Shown here one piece after another: positions 8,663 through 32,613 of a DNA stretch of 47,513 nt (positions within the stretch are counted from its first letter, which is position 1; the number at the start of each line of letters is the position of its first letter). The stretch covers positions 1-47,513 of the forward strand of contig JACSSA010000070.1 of NCBI GenBank assembly GCA_014879465.1. Direction: 5' to 3'. Below the pieces are notes generated by a model. That model ran no database searches. It worked only from the letters and a program-made list of their open reading frames with translations, and was not told where the DNA came from. The DNA is from Rhodothermales bacterium. Its GTDB lineage: Bacteria; Bacteroidota; Rhodothermia; Rhodothermales; BA12. The translations under genes and the position numbers were made by a program.

Positions 8663-11134
8663 ATGCGCCCCGATGCCTTGCCCGACCCCCGCGCCTACCC
8701 GGCGTTGCTTGCGGCCTCGGCGCTGGCGCTCGGCATCGTGGCGGCGCGCAGCATACCGAGCCTTTCGCCGCTCGTCTGGACGGGATTTGCGGCAGCGTTC
8801 CTCCTTGGATTTGTCGCGTTCTCCCGCGTCCGCACCACGGCGCAGCCGCGCCTTGTCGCCCTCGCGCAAACCGCCCTTGCGCTCGTCGCCGTCGCAGCGC
8901 TCGGGGCCGCCCGCACCGCCCTGCTCGCCACACCTGCGCCATCCGACGTGTCGCACGTCGTGCCTGCCGAAGGGATAGAGGGGACACTCGTGGGGCGAGT
9001 GGCCGATGTGCCCACCGCGACGCCCGGACGCCTCCGGTTTCGCCTCGCCGTCGATTCTGTCCAGACCGTCGGCGCGATGCGCACGGCCTCGGGCCTCGTC
9101 CAAGCGGCGCTCTTCCCCGACGATTCGCTCGCCGCGCTGCCTGCACTCCGCCACGGCGAGCGCGTCCGCCTCGATGCCCGGCTTCGCCCGCCGCGTGCCC
9201 GCCGCAACCCGGCGGACTTCGACTACGCCGCGTTCCTCGCCCGCCAAGGCATCTGGACGACTGCCACGGCCTACGACGCCGACGCTCTCGCGGTTGGCTC
9301 GTCTACGCTTGGCCCGTTCGGTCGTCTCGTGCAACACATTCGGGCGTACGCGGAGCGCACCTTGCACCGCTTCGTGCCCGGCTCCGACGCACAGGCGTTG
9401 CTCGCGGCTCTCGTGCTGGGCGACCGCTCCGGTCTCGGCGACGCTACCAACGCTGCCTTTCGCAACACGGGACTGCTCCATCTGCTCGCCGTGTCGGGGC
9501 TGCATGTGCTGCTCGTTGGGATGCTGCTCTACGAACTGCTGCGTGGCCTGCTCCGCCGCACCCGCTTGTCCTACCGACAGGTCGAGATCGTCCGAGCGGT
9601 AGCGACGTTGGCGGTGCTCGTGATCTACGCTGCGCTCACCGGCGCATCGGCGAGCGTGGTGCGGGCCGTCGCGATGGCGACGGTGCTCATCCTCGCCAAC
9701 CTGACGCAGCGCCCCACCAGCGGGATGAACGCCCTCGGCGTGGCCGCGATCATCGTCTTGGCCGTCCGCCCGTCGCAACTCGTCGAGCCGGGGTTTCAGC
9801 TGTCGTTCGCCGCCGTGGCCGGACTTGTCGTGCTGCGCCCCGTTTTGGAAGACGCCATCAACGCACGGATTGGGCGCGGCTGGAAACGGTCGGCGTGGAA
9901 GCGCGAAGCGCTCGGCGGGATGCTCGCCACCGTGGCGGCCACCCTGGCCACACTGCCCGTGCTGCTCTACCACTTCGGGCGGTTGCCGTTTGCAGGCGTG
10001 GTGCTCAACCTCGTCGGCGTGCCGCTCACCACGCTTACCTTCGCCGCCGCCTTGGCCACGTTGGCCGTTGGGGGCGTGCCGCCGCTGGCGGCTGTGTTCG
10101 GCGCGGCCGCGGGGGTTTTGGCCGATGCGCTCGTGGCCCTCGCCGCGGGGGGCAACCGAACGCTCGCGGCCTTCTCGTTCGTCCACTACGAGACGCGGAC
10201 GCTGGCGCTTGCCGCCACCGCATCCGCCCTCGTCACCGTCGCCGCGTGGCCCTATCGGCGGCTGCGCGGGCGAATGCTGCTGTCCACGCTCGCGCTTGCT
10301 GTCGCAACGATTGCAGTCGACCTACGGACAGGACGAAGCCGCCCCACGCTCGACCTCGTGGCGTTCGACGTGGGGCAGGGCGACGCGCTGCTCGTCGTCA
10401 CACCCCAGCACAAGACACTTCTCGTAGATGCAGGCCCTCGCGATGCCCGCACCGACGCCGGAGAGGCGGTCGTGCTGCCGCACCTCCAACGGTTTGGCAT
10501 CGACCGGGTGGACGCGCTCGTCGTTACGCACCCCCACGCAGACCATGCGGGCGGAGCTCTTGCGCTGCTGCAGACCGGGCGCGTCGGGGCACTGTTTCAC
10601 AACGGCGACGATTACGACTCCGACCTATGGCGCGAAACCCTCGCCGAAGCCCGGCGGCAGGGCGTGCCTGTGGAAACCCTTCGTGCTGGCGACACCCTTG
10701 CACTTGACCCGGAGGTGCGGATGCAGGTGCTGGCCCCCGCCGAAACCCGCGCCCATCCGCCCGAAACCAACGATGCGTCCATCGCACTACGCCTCGCCTA
10801 CGGCCAGACCACGGCCTTGCTGCTCGGCGACGTCCAGTTGCAGGCCGAGGCCGAAATCGTGGCCCGCTACCGGGATCTGCTCGCCGCCGACGTCGTCAAG
10901 GTCAGCCACCACGGGAGCCGCACGTCCAGCGCCCCGCCGCTGCTCACCGCCCTTCGCAAGCCGGGCTGCATCGCGGTGGTGAGCGTCGCCGAACGCAATC
11001 GGTACGGCCTCCCCGACGAAGAGGTGCTGGCCCGCTGGCAACGGACGTGCCCCTCGGTGGACGTGACCAGCCGCACCGGAGCCGTCTGGCTTCGCTCCAA
11101 CGGGCAGCGATTCTCGGATGTGGCTTGGCGTTGA
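8663..11134 (+). CDS. comEC: DNA internalization-related competence protein ComEC/Rec2
   Basis: Competence domain (NTGLLHLLAVSGLHVLLVG) and C-terminal MBL domain (VAFDVGQGDALLV, THPHADHAGG, VKVSHHGSRTSSAP). Confidence 0.95.
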   Translation: MRPDALPDPRAYPALLAASALALGIVAARSIPSLSPLVWTGFAAAFLLGFVAFSRVRTTAQPRLVALAQTALALVAVAALGAARTALLATPAPSDVSHVVPAEGIEGTLVGRVADVPTATPGRLRFRLAVDSVQTVGAMRTASGLVQAALFPDDSLAALPALRHGERVRLDARLRPPRARRNPADFDYAAFLARQGIWTTATAYDADALAVGSSTLGPFGRLVQHIRAYAERTLHRFVPGSDAQALLAALVLGDRSGLGDATNAAFRNTGLLHLLAVSGLHVLLVGMLLYELLRGLLRRTRLSYRQVEIVRAVATLAVLVIYAALTGASASVVRAVAMATVLILANLTQRPTSGMNALGVAAIIVLAVRPSQLVEPGFQLSFAAVAGLVVLRPVLEDAINARIGRGWKRSAWKREALGGMLATVAATLATLPVLLYHFGRLPFAGVVLNLVGVPLTTLTFAAALATLAVGGVPPLAAVFGAAAGVLADALVALAAGGNRTLAAFSFVHYETRTLALAATASALVTVAAWPYRRLRGRMLLSTLALAVATIAVDLRTGRSRPTLDLVAFDVGQGDALLVVTPQHKTLLVDAGPRDARTDAGEAVVLPHLQRFGIDRVDALVVTHPHADHAGGALALLQTGRVGALFHNGDDYDSDLWRETLAEARRQGVPVETLRAGDTLALDPEVRMQVLAPAETRAHPPETNDASIALRLAYGQTTALLLGDVQLQAEAEIVARYRDLLAADVVKVSHHGSRTSSAPPLLTALRKPGCIAVVSVAERNRYGLPDEEVLARWQRTCPSVDVTSRTGAVWLRSNGQRFSDVAWR

Positions 11135-11818
11135 GCGGCGAGGAGCGAACGGTAGGGCATCGGGGCGGAGCGAACGGCGACGGGATCAACCTACCGCACC
11201 GTGCAGCCACGAATCAACCGGCTTATCCCTGCCCGCCTCTTTTCTTCCTCTTCCAATTGGATTAATAAAAAAGGGCAGTCGTTAAAGGCAGGGGCTGTGG
11301 AGTTGTGGGCGAAGATGGTTTCCCACCCGATGGACGCCGTGACGTGGACAATAGGCCTCCTTTTTCCACGATATGTGCACGAGGTGTACATATGATCACC
11401 ATCGCACATAGGTCAGAAAAAAGCGATTCTGGTGCGAAGGGTGCAGGTTCTCCACATCCCCACCGCTATCCACAGGTCAAGCAAATTGATCGGCACGGCG
11501 GAGCGTTTCGTTATCCACACCGTGGAGAAAAGTCGCCAAACGGTGGATAACCGGGGTTGCTTTCCACGTCTCCTCACACCCCTCCAGTTCAAGGCGGCTT
11601 ACCGACGGAATCTGCCGAGATGTCCACACGGCTATCCACGGTGTGGACAACGGCTCCGAATCGGCCTTCCTGCCCTCGTCTGCGCGGATTGGAGGCCGGT
11701 AACCGCCGTGTAACACGGAATGCCGCTGTGGAAAACCGGGAGGATCGTCGTTGCGGCGCGAAACGGGGCGGTTTAGACGGGCGTTAGTCGCGTCGCTTCT
11801 CTTCTCTGGCCTCACGCG
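11135..11818. other. Candidate replication origin (oriC) or DnaA-binding cluster
   Basis: ~680 bp without a credible CDS. DnaA boxes: perfect TTATCCACA 11511-11519; single-mismatch 11448-11456 (TTCTCCACA), 11466-11474 (CTATCCACA), 11542-11550 (rc TTATCCACC), 11642-11650 (rc TTGTCCACA), 11727-11735 (rc TTTTCCACA); several two-mismatch sites; AT-rich TTCCAATTGGATTAATAAAAAA near 11251-11272. Confidence 0.75.
11371..11393. promoter_or_regulatory. Near-perfect dyad ATATGTGCAC-GAG-GTGTACATAT inside the candidate oriC
   Basis: 10-bp arms with one mismatch and a 3-nt centre; not a DnaA box. Confidence 0.6.
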
Positions 11819-12445
11819 ATGATCTTCTTTATGCCCGACCGACCCGGTGCGCCGGTGCTTTTTACTGCCCTTGCCGATGCGCAGGCGCTCGCCGACCGGG
11901 TGTTTGTGGTGGATAGCGCGAAGGTGACCAACCTGCGAGGCGCTACGGTGGCGCTGACGTGCGACAGCGTGCCCCGCGAGGCCATTCTCAACGCCCGGCC
12001 GTATATGGCGCCGCGCAAGGTGTCGGCGGGTGGCGGCTACGTCGTGCGCGCAGGCGAACACGGCCCCGATGTGCTGCTCATCCACCGCCGTGGCGCATGG
12101 GATCTTCCAAAGGGCAAGCGCGACGGCGGCGAGGGGTGGGCCGACTGCGCCCGCCGCGAAGTCCGCGAAGAACTTGGCATCCGCGACCTTCGCATCGTCG
12201 CGCCGCTGGGCGCGACCGTCCACGGCTACGAGGAGAAAGGGCGCTACTGCGTCAAGCCCACCCGCTGGTACGCGATGACCACGCCGCACACGCGGTTTAC
12301 GCCGCAGGCGGCCGAGGGTATCGACGCGGTCGAGTGGGTTTCCTACGACGAGGCGCTGGAACGGCTTTCGTTCGAGACGCTGCGCACCCACGCCACGCTC
12401 GTGCGCCCGGTCATCGAGGCCATCGTGGCCGAAGGTGGCGCGTGA
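11819..12445 (+). CDS. NUDIX hydrolase
   Basis: Nudix box GKRDGGEGWADCARREVREELGI. Confidence 0.92.
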   Translation: MIFFMPDRPGAPVLFTALADAQALADRVFVVDSAKVTNLRGATVALTCDSVPREAILNARPYMAPRKVSAGGGYVVRAGEHGPDVLLIHRRGAWDLPKGKRDGGEGWADCARREVREELGIRDLRIVAPLGATVHGYEEKGRYCVKPTRWYAMTTPHTRFTPQAAEGIDAVEWVSYDEALERLSFETLRTHATLVRPVIEAIVAEGGA

Positions 12446-12492: not shown

Positions 12493-13182
12493 ATGCCCGA
12501 AGCCGAATCTTCCCGCGTGGCCATCGTGCCCGGCGCCACCGGGCTTGTGGGGCGCAACCTCGTGCGCGTGCTGCTGGAGGGGGATGCCTACGCCCGTGTG
12601 GTGGCGCTCGCCCGCCGCGAAACGCCGACGCTCGGCCCGCGCCACGAACCGACGCTTGTGGACTACGACCGGCTTGAAGAAGCGCATCTGCCGATGGAAG
12701 GAGCCGACGTGTTCTGTGCCTTGGGCACGACCATCCGAGACGCCGGCAGCCGCGAGGCGTTTCGGCGGGTGGACTTTACCTACGTCGTGCGGCTGGCCGC
12801 CGTGGCCGCCAGCCACGGCGCGCGGTCGTTCAGCCTCGTGAGCGCCGTCAGCGCCGATCCGAAGAGCCGCGTGTTTTACAGCCGCATCAAGGGCGAAGCC
12901 GAGCGGGCCGTGGCAGCGTCGGGCGTGCCCATCGTCCACCTGTTTCGCCCCAGTCTGCTTCTTGGCGAGCGCAACGCCATCCGGATGGGAGAGAGCGTGG
13001 CCGCGGCGCTGCTGCGTCCGCTGACGCCGGTGCTGCGGGGGCCGCTGGCCAACCTTCGCCCCATCTTTGGAGAGACCGTGGCGCGGGCGATGGTCGCGGC
13101 GGCCCTCACCGACGATGTCCCCGGCGTGCGCGTGTACGACCCCGCGGCGATGCGCCGCCTCGCCGCGTCAACAAGGGCCTGA
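12493..13182 (+). CDS. NAD(P)-binding SDR-like oxidoreductase (HTATIP2/YbjT-like)
   Basis: Rossmann motif GATGLVGRNLVRVLL, VSAVSADPKSRVFYSRIKGEAE; internal ATG at 12493. Confidence 0.85.
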   Translation: MPEAESSRVAIVPGATGLVGRNLVRVLLEGDAYARVVALARRETPTLGPRHEPTLVDYDRLEEAHLPMEGADVFCALGTTIRDAGSREAFRRVDFTYVVRLAAVAASHGARSFSLVSAVSADPKSRVFYSRIKGEAERAVAASGVPIVHLFRPSLLLGERNAIRMGESVAAALLRPLTPVLRGPLANLRPIFGETVARAMVAAALTDDVPGVRVYDPAAMRRLAASTRA

Positions 13183-14079: not shown

Positions 14080-14769
14080 ATGTCCAAGCGCATCCTGCAC
14101 GTCGTTACGAACGTCGCCCACTACGACGATCCGTCCGAGCCGACGGGCCTGTGGCTGTCCGAGTTGACGCACGCCTACCATGTGTTCGAAGCGCAAGGCT
14201 ACACGCAGCGGATCGTCAGCCCCCACGGCGGCCCTTCGCCGCTCGAACCGCGGGCGCTCAAATGGCCCAACTTCGACGCCACGGCCAAGGCGTGGCACGC
14301 CGACCCCGCGAAGATGGCGCTGCTGGCGAGCACGGCCCGCCCCGACGAGATCGACTCGGCGGACTTCGACGTCATCTACTTTACCGGCGGCCACGCTGTG
14401 ATGTACGACTTTCCCGATTCGGAAGGCCTCCAGCGCATCACCCGCGAGATCTACGAACGCGGCGGCATCGTCTCGTCGGTGTGCCACGGCTACTGCGGCC
14501 TGCTCAACACCACGCTCTCCGACGGGAGCCTGCTCGTGGCGGGCAAGAAGCTCACCGGATTTGCGTGGCAGGAAGAGGTGCTGGCGGGCGTGGCGAAGAA
14601 GGTGCCCTACAACGCCGAGGAGGAGATGAAGCAACGCAGCGCGCGCTACGAAAAGGCGCTGCTGCCGTTCGTGTCGAATGTCGTGGTGGACGGGCGCTTG
14701 GTGACGGGCCAGAACCCGCAGTCGGCCAAGGCGACCGCCGAGCACGTCGTGACCGCGCTGTCCAACTGA
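14080..14769 (+). CDS. Type 1 glutamine amidotransferase-like / DJ-1/PfpI family protein
   Basis: VIYFTGGHAVMYDFPDSEGL and GGIVSSVCHGYCGLLN (nucleophile elbow), Hsp31/PfpI-like. Confidence 0.9.
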   Translation: MSKRILHVVTNVAHYDDPSEPTGLWLSELTHAYHVFEAQGYTQRIVSPHGGPSPLEPRALKWPNFDATAKAWHADPAKMALLASTARPDEIDSADFDVIYFTGGHAVMYDFPDSEGLQRITREIYERGGIVSSVCHGYCGLLNTTLSDGSLLVAGKKLTGFAWQEEVLAGVAKKVPYNAEEEMKQRSARYEKALLPFVSNVVVDGRLVTGQNPQSAKATAEHVVTALSN

Positions 14770-30830: not shown

Positions 30831-31541
30831 GTGACACGTAATCCTGACTGGACAACGGACGAGTTGATTCTAGCACTGGCTCTTTACATGCGAGTCGGCC
30901 GGAAGCAGCTTGAGCAAACTGACGAGCGAGTAATAGAGTTGAGCGAGACCCTTCAACACCTTCCTATCCACCCTCCAAGTGCTCGCACTCCCAACTTCAG
31001 GAATCCCGCAGGTGTCTCTATGAAGCTCGCCAACTTCTTGGCCCTGGACCCAAATTATCCGGGCCAGGCCCTTTCAAGAGGTGGACGTCTAGATCGCGAG
31101 GTTTGGGAGTCCTTCGCGGACCATCCTTATCAATTGGAACGAGCCGCCGAGGGCATTGCGATGGCTCGCGTATCTGACGCTATTGAAGGCTATCGTGCTG
31201 AAACAGACGAAGAGAAGTTCTCCGAAGGCGAGATTCTTACTCGCCTTCACCGTTCGCGGGAACGCAAACCCCAAGCGATCAAGAGCAAGAAAGAGGCCGT
31301 TCTACGCCAAACTGGAGCGTTGCGCTGCGAAGTATGCTCCTTTGATTTTGCAATTTTTTACGGGGAGATCGGGCATGGCTTTGCCGAGTGCCATCATTTG
31401 ACCCCGATCTCCGAGCTACGCCCCAATCAACGAACAACACTGCGCGACCTGGCGATCGTGTGCGCCAATTGCCACCGGATGCTCCACCGGGGTCCCAGGC
31501 TCCTTACTCTAGCAGAACTCCGGGCTCATCTTGCCGGGTAG
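30831..31541 (+). CDS. HNH endonuclease (McrA-like; GTG start)
   Basis: CEVCSFDFAIFYGEIGHGFAECHHLTPISEL...TTLRDLAIVCANCHRMLHR; N-terminal WTTDELILALALYMRVG module common in HNH restriction-type proteins. Confidence 0.92.
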   Translation: MTRNPDWTTDELILALALYMRVGRKQLEQTDERVIELSETLQHLPIHPPSARTPNFRNPAGVSMKLANFLALDPNYPGQALSRGGRLDREVWESFADHPYQLERAAEGIAMARVSDAIEGYRAETDEEKFSEGEILTRLHRSRERKPQAIKSKKEAVLRQTGALRCEVCSFDFAIFYGEIGHGFAECHHLTPISELRPNQRTTLRDLAIVCANCHRMLHRGPRLLTLAELRAHLAG

Positions 31542-31560
31542 TTTGATCTTTCGAATCCCA

Positions 31561-32613
31561 ATGCGCCGCCTCGTACTCCTTGTTCTTCTCCTCGTCGCTC
31601 CGGCGCTGAAGGCCCAGCCGCTGACGCTCCACGCGCTCGTGGACTCGACGCACGCGGCGGGGCGGTTCGATGGGGCGGTGCTGGTGTTCGACGGGCAGCG
31701 GACGATGGCGGCGACGGCGGGCGTGGCCGACCGCGAAGCGCGGACGCCGTGGACGCTTGCCACCCGGTCGCCGTGGGCGTCGGTGTCCAAACTGATCACG
31801 GCCTCGCTCGTGCTCCGGCACGTCGGAACGGGGCGGCTGCGCCTCGACGACGACGCGCGGGCGTGGCTTCCGGCGCTGCGCACCGGCCCGAAAACGACGC
31901 TGCGGCACCTGCTCGCCCACATGTCCGGCCTCGCCACCGGCTCGGACGTGCAGAACCTCTACGACCGCGCCACGCTGGCCGCCACCCGCGCGGCAATGGA
32001 TTCGGTGCTGGCCGGGCCGCGCCGCGATGCGCCAGGGGCGTCGTGGCGGTACAACAACCTTGACTACATCGCGATGGAACGCCTCGTGGCGGACGTTGAA
32101 GGCCGTCCGTATGCGTCGGCGGTGACCCGGCGGCTTCTGCGTCCGTTGGGGCTTCGGTCGGTGCAGATGGGCGAGGGCGGGCAGACGGTCGGCTACGCGG
32201 TGGATTCCACGGGCGCGGCCACGCCCGTGCGGCTTTCCGCCAACGTGCTCGCGGGCTTCGGCGCGGCGGGCGGCTTCGTCGGCGACGTGCGCGACCTGCT
32301 CCGCCTCGGGCGGGCGCTGGCGGACGGTCGGCTGCTGTCTCCAGCCCTCCGCGACACCCTCACGGCAGCGTTGCCCAATGCCCGGAGTGCGCTGTCGGTG
32401 TGGACGTACGAAGCCGAGACCCACGACGGAAGGCGCGTCCGCGTGATCGAGCGGCAGGGGTGGATCGCAGGCAACCGGGCGCTGCTGCTCGTCGTCCCTG
32501 AAACCGGGTCGGTCGTGGCCGTCTTGGCCAACACCGACGTGAGCGACCTCGGAAGCACAGCGTCGGGCGAGGGGTTCAGCGCGGCGTTGCTGGGCTTGGC
32601 GCTTCGGCGGTAG
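31561..32613 (+). CDS. Secreted serine hydrolase, beta-lactamase / class C family
   Basis: Signal peptide MRRLVLLVLLLVAPALKAQ; SxxK motif SVSK; WRYNNLDYIAMERLV (YxN). Confidence 0.9.
   Translation: MRRLVLLVLLLVAPALKAQPLTLHALVDSTHAAGRFDGAVLVFDGQRTMAATAGVADREARTPWTLATRSPWASVSKLITASLVLRHVGTGRLRLDDDARAWLPALRTGPKTTLRHLLAHMSGLATGSDVQNLYDRATLAATRAAMDSVLAGPRRDAPGASWRYNNLDYIAMERLVADVEGRPYASAVTRRLLRPLGLRSVQMGEGGQTVGYAVDSTGAATPVRLSANVLAGFGAAGGFVGDVRDLLRLGRALADGRLLSPALRDTLTAALPNARSALSVWTYEAETHDGRRVRVIERQGWIAGNRALLLVVPETGSVVAVLANTDVSDLGSTASGEGFSAALLGLALRR

Follow-up and report, generated by a model that had tools for sequence, protein, structure and literature searches.

The spacer between comEC and a NUDIX hydrolase gene raises the question of whether a chromosomal origin of replication may be located here, away from dnaA. 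It lies on contig C165 of a draft genome of 219 contigs and 2.97 Mb, and the whole stretch of DNA that was analysed (47.5 kb, hereafter the window) has a base composition of 68% GC. A previous reading made from the DNA letters alone (the sequence-only reading) had proposed a candidate oriC in this spacer, with no dnaA nearby; indeed, the window holds no dnaA, the gene being located on contig C78. The results described below indicate that the spacer (684 bp) is very probably the chromosomal oriC, a reading that is supported by the change of GC skew at the box cluster and by the conserved position of the cluster 3' of comEC.

DnaA boxes in the comEC-NUDIX spacer

The interval between the comEC stop (11134) and the NUDIX start (11819) contains no credible gene, as had been proposed. 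The long antisense frame in 11135-11818 gave no protein-family match, and no Rfam family was matched in the same interval; a protein encoded on that frame and an RNA gene within the spacer were discarded on these grounds, respectively. The flanking genes, the spacer and the boxes with up to two mismatches are the following.

8663-11134, plus strand: comEC, the conserved neighbour, with its 3' end towards the putative origin
11135-11818, no strand: intergenic comEC-NUDIX region, putative oriC region, 684 bp
11343-11351, minus strand: DnaA box with two mismatches, TTGTCCACG
11362-11370, plus strand: DnaA box with two mismatches, TTTTCCACG
11448-11456, plus strand: DnaA box with one mismatch, TTCTCCACA
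11466-11474, plus strand: DnaA box with one mismatch, CTATCCACA
11511-11519, plus strand: perfect DnaA box, TTATCCACA
11521-11529, minus strand: DnaA box with two mismatches, TTCTCCACG
11542-11550, minus strand: DnaA box with one mismatch, TTATCCACC
11620-11628, plus strand: DnaA box with two mismatches, ATGTCCACA
11632-11640, plus strand: DnaA box with two mismatches, CTATCCACG
11642-11650, minus strand: DnaA box with one mismatch, TTGTCCACA
11727-11735, minus strand: DnaA box with one mismatch, TTTTCCACA
11509-11652, no strand: inverted repeat with arms of 18 nt (11509-11526 and 11635-11652) that are 94% complementary and consist of opposed boxes
11819-12445, plus strand: NUDIX hydrolase gene, the right-hand neighbour

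The sequence-only reading had described one perfect and five single-mismatch boxes in both orientations, and all of them were found at the expected positions. Allowing no more than one mismatch to TTATCCACA, the 47.5-kb window has these six sites only, and they are confined to 11448-11735. The two-mismatch sites that it listed (11343, 11521 on the minus strand; 11362, 11620, 11632 on the plus strand) were likewise recovered, giving eleven boxes with two or fewer mismatches in the spacer. Its rough estimate was some 0.15 sites by chance; dinucleotide shuffles of the spacer averaged 0.08 ± 0.27 sites with at most one mismatch and none of 2,000 reached the six observed. With up to two mismatches allowed, the shuffles rendered 1.1 ± 1.05 sites, and again none of 2,000 reached eleven. 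Similarly, when the letters of the box were permuted (n = 1,500), six sites were reached by the real box only.

The density of the TCCAC/GTGGA core was 19 per kb in the spacer versus 3.4 per kb in the window. When paired-box patterns were searched across the 2.97-Mb draft, the spacer proved to be the densest cluster, followed by the region upstream of dnaA; apart from the spacer, the only dense grouping in the genome consisted of the three boxes upstream of dnaA. The spacer thus presents the dense intergenic cluster of DnaA boxes that is expected of an oriC. An imperfect palindrome, ATATGTGCAC-GAG-GTGTACATAT, is also present within the cluster at 11371-11393, and could be a site for another protein.

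The dnaA locus and the GC skew

The genome contains a single full dnaA, which adjoins dnaN and with which contig C78 ends. A 2-kb contig, C188, overlaps the end of C78 at the start of dnaA, and the joined order is plsX-like, rpmF-like and DUF177-like genes (all three as read from their frames), a spacer of approximately 570 bp, dnaA and dnaN. The spacer of C188 (1471-2082 region) contains three DnaA boxes, namely one TTTTCCACA and two perfect boxes in inverted orientation with 21 bp between them, and boxes upstream of dnaA are also found in most relatives. The cluster on C165 is therefore not a dnaA-adjacent oriC, dnaA being on C78/C188, and in relatives the two are separated by about 12 kb to 230 kb. 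A second full or near-full DnaA-family protein, over the family cut-off, was found in many relatives of the order (G004, G008, G012, G013, G015, G018, G020, G023, G024, G026, G029, G030, G033, G034, G036 and G038), while the source genome has one.

The GC skew of the window averaged −0.083 to the left of the cluster (11.3 kb) and +0.024 to the right (12 kb). The sign changes there even though the genes on either side read rightward. The cumulative skew was flat at its lowest level between 11 and 15 kb, with its exact minimum at 14,520. As the source genome is a draft of 219 contigs, its curve covers the window, and complete relatives were examined as well.

In the complete genome G002, the cumulative minimum (over 220 kb around dnaA) fell at 31,160, 170 bp from the cluster at 31,328-31,785 and 31 kb from dnaA, which starts at base 25; skews sampled around this chromosome stayed positive as far as 1.6 Mb, and those from 1.8 Mb onward were negative. 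In G012, the minimum (17,419) was nearer to the cluster (12,671-13,086) than to dnaA. For its part, G007 showed negative skew to either side of dnaA (0.924 Mb), turning positive after about 1.18 Mb, near the cluster at 1.154 Mb; dnaA lies 230 kb from the shift. In G010, the sign changed near 2.47-2.50 Mb, with dnaA at 2.32 Mb and the cluster at 2.394 Mb, leaving a gap of 80-100 kb between the module (see below) and the change, which could reflect a recent inversion or a shift of the origin. The skew rose across the cluster in 14 of the 16 loci tested, the window included; the two exceptions include G021, and for one of them no more than 0.8 kb is available to one side of the cluster. As regards the GC-skew minimum expected of an oriC, the sign thus changes in the window, G002 has its minimum at the cluster, and G007 and G012 have a shift or minimum near it. 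The skew had been suggested as a check of the oriC proposal; it favours the cluster, the sign changing there and away from dnaA in complete relatives as in the window.

The putative unwinding module and its conservation beside comEC

The AT-rich stretch that had been noticed beside the cluster in this GC-rich genome was confirmed, with an AT content of 0.68 over 11240-11279 in a window of 68% GC. A tract of this kind beside the boxes is a further mark of an oriC, and in relatives it lies on the same side. Comparison with relatives added other elements around it, as listed here.

11223-11231, plus strand: degenerate outer box TTATCCCTG, three mismatches, aligned with the outer DnaA box of relatives
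11240-11279, plus strand: AT-rich tract (AT 0.68), candidate DNA unwinding element, with TAATAAAAA at 11263-11271
11273-11295, plus strand: tract where relatives carry their DnaA-trios (as TAG or GTT repeats), degenerate in the window and outside the strict trio rule
11296-11308, minus strand: degenerate tandem box pair TGTGGAGTTGTGG, three mismatches each (TGTGGAAATGTGG in relatives), absent from the list of the sequence-only reading

With comEC at the left, the module of the relatives consists of the AT-rich tract, repeated triplets, a short GC spacer, the tandem box pair TGTGGAnnTGTGG and then the remaining boxes. It was present at the clusters of families f7, f8, f9, f10, f11 and others. 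The triplets were TAG in f7, f8, f9, f10, f11 and f14, GTT or TTG in f13, and mixed in f3 and f5. In 4.08 Mb of scanned sequence, the pattern TAGTAGTAG-N0-8-TGTGG occurred only at comEC-side or equivalent clusters, including that of bin OFTM240, and at none of the dnaA loci examined. For the motif TGTGGnnnTGTGG alone, 1.58 Mb of sequence sampled from relatives gave two occurrences; the window has one, at 11296, with TTAATAAAAAA upstream at 11262-11272.

The arrangement resembles the basal unwinding system (BUS) of Bacillus subtilis, which comprises a DnaA-box pair, a GC-rich spacer and DnaA-trios (PMC8287927). The relatives keep the same order of parts, their canonical TAG repeats lying 1-4 bp away from the tandem box pair, whereas the window has degenerate forms of both pair and trios, and the triplets of Rhodothermus- and Salinibacter-like relatives have drifted to GTT/TTG. 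A strict BUS rule (a box with at most two mismatches, a spacer of 0-16 bp and three or more NAN triplets no farther than 16 bp from the box; PMC8287927) gave matches in G006, G007, G010, G012, G020 and G021, and none in the spacer of the window (11135-11818), because each box of its pair has three mismatches and fewer than three NAN triplets lie within 16 bp. The stretch 11240-11308 aligned with the module of 14 relatives, the triplets of the window having decayed. The TGTGG pair served as the seed of this alignment, and its invariance is therefore a selection effect; the AT-rich tract and the triplets were not selected in this way. As judged from the alignment, the module of the window is a putative unwinding module, collinear with that of the relatives and a degenerate version of it.

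The relatives compared carry the label of one order, apparently Rhodothermales, to which Rhodothermus and Salinibacter belong. Eight of its family labels, the source genome included, have a box cluster approximately 100-1300 bp 3' of comEC, and so does the metagenome bin GSL.Bin3. Clusters of 4-16 boxes in both orientations occupied this position in f3 and f13 (all tested), f7, f8, f4 and f9 (one of two each) and f10 (one of three), and weaker ones were observed in f2. Family f14 has its cluster on the opposite side of comEC, and in G010 it is ∼66 kb from comEC and 6 kb before the NUDIX gene. No cluster was seen 3' of comEC in the sequence examined of G001, G003, G009, G011, G031, G043, G046 and most of f5, some relatives being assessed on 1.5 kb of comEC flank only. 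Conservation at the same locus, as would be expected of an origin, thus holds, though not in every relative.

Conservation of the comEC-NUDIX spacer had been another suggested check, and it too favoured the proposal, the cluster being kept 3' of comEC; linkage to the NUDIX gene is looser, this gene being kilobases away or elsewhere in many relatives. The NUDIX gene was also tried as a synteny anchor and set aside, since few boxes lay within 1.5 kb of it in most relatives; comEC is the anchor instead. Bins GSL.Bin3 and OFTM240 were among the matches listed from a ComEC alignment scan of genome contigs, most of the listed matches being from distant phyla. OFTM240 (Bacteroidota, ComEC 31% identical) carries a canonical module of TAG trios and tandem boxes ∼1 kb 3' of comEC (12671-12760 of the locus), which coincides with a change of sign of the GC skew. 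Bacillaceae loci among the matches listed from the same scan also show box clusters.

The probable origin is kept beside comEC across much of the order, at a distance from dnaA and the boxes upstream of that gene; the comEC-side address appears to be typical of the order.

Proposed mechanism, alternatives and known systems

The boxes, the AT-rich tract, the change of skew, the conserved position and the conserved layout were observed directly, and it is from them that we infer DnaA binding, melting at the tract and use of the locus as an origin. DnaA, made from the distant dnaA gene, would bind the boxes at 11343-11735 in both orientations and nucleate on the tandem pair (11296-11308). On the comEC side it would then open the AT-rich tract (11240-11279), where the helicase would be loaded and bidirectional replication would start.

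Boxes upstream of dnaA, in the source genome (C188) as in most relatives, would also suit a bipartite or dual origin, in which they act together with the comEC-side cluster and DnaA binds at both, as in Helicobacter pylori. Such an arrangement is nonetheless improbable. The parts of known bipartite origins are separated by a short gap, far exceeded by the distances of about 12-230 kb found in relatives; the upstream boxes are equally explained by autoregulation, and the trio-plus-box module was not found there in the dnaA loci examined. Dense boxes with no dnaA nearby are, on the other hand, what a DnaA-titrating or DnaA-reactivating locus of the datA/DARS type would offer, the real origin then being at dnaA, and comparable clusters titrate DnaA in Escherichia coli. 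The likeness to E. coli datA/DARS lies in the clustering of boxes at a distance from dnaA. However, those loci are not known to lie at the GC-skew minimum or to have an unwinding module, whereas here the minimum and the sign change fall at the comEC-side locus and not at dnaA, so the cluster does not appear to be away from the replication origin, and a titration site would have no need of an unwinding element such as the AT-rich/trio module of the relatives. This reading is even less probable than the bipartite one.

The spacer also lies directly upstream of the NUDIX start, and its boxes could in principle form a DnaA-controlled regulatory region for that gene or for comEC, with no origin involved. 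We consider this the least probable reading, one hardly to be entertained, since relatives with the cluster have the NUDIX gene kilobases away or elsewhere, and comEC presents its 3' end, not its promoter, to the cluster. None of these alternatives explains the skew together with the module.

The oriC reading has precedents in origins that lie apart from dnaA, such as those of E. coli and Synechococcus elongatus, with which the locus shares a two-orientation box cluster, an adjacent AT-rich tract, an intergenic position and the GC-skew minimum. The oriC of S. elongatus adjoins dnaN (PMC7198777). Here, in contrast to both, the conserved neighbour is comEC, which is not reported as an origin neighbour in the literature searched. 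The kind of element is already known, and its address is lineage-specific. A wider proposal, which we advance tentatively and hold to be somewhat short of probable, is that a comEC-anchored origin is order-wide, with dnaA 12-230 kb off, that its module decays from TAG trios through GTT repeats to a degenerate form, and that the lineage may open its origin with a non-canonical DnaA-trio. The literature searched held no report of a comEC-linked origin or of graded trio decay; an Ori-Finder/DoriC prediction for Rhodothermus marinus or Salinibacter ruber may exist.

The locus would provide a well-supported origin location for an order whose complete genome records often open at dnaA, and the position 3' of comEC a simple marker for ordering draft genomes and for reading growth rates from coverage. 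That trios may vary in sequence is a possibility already raised (PMC8287927), and the graded DnaA-trio series across families offers a natural test of the variation that is tolerated.
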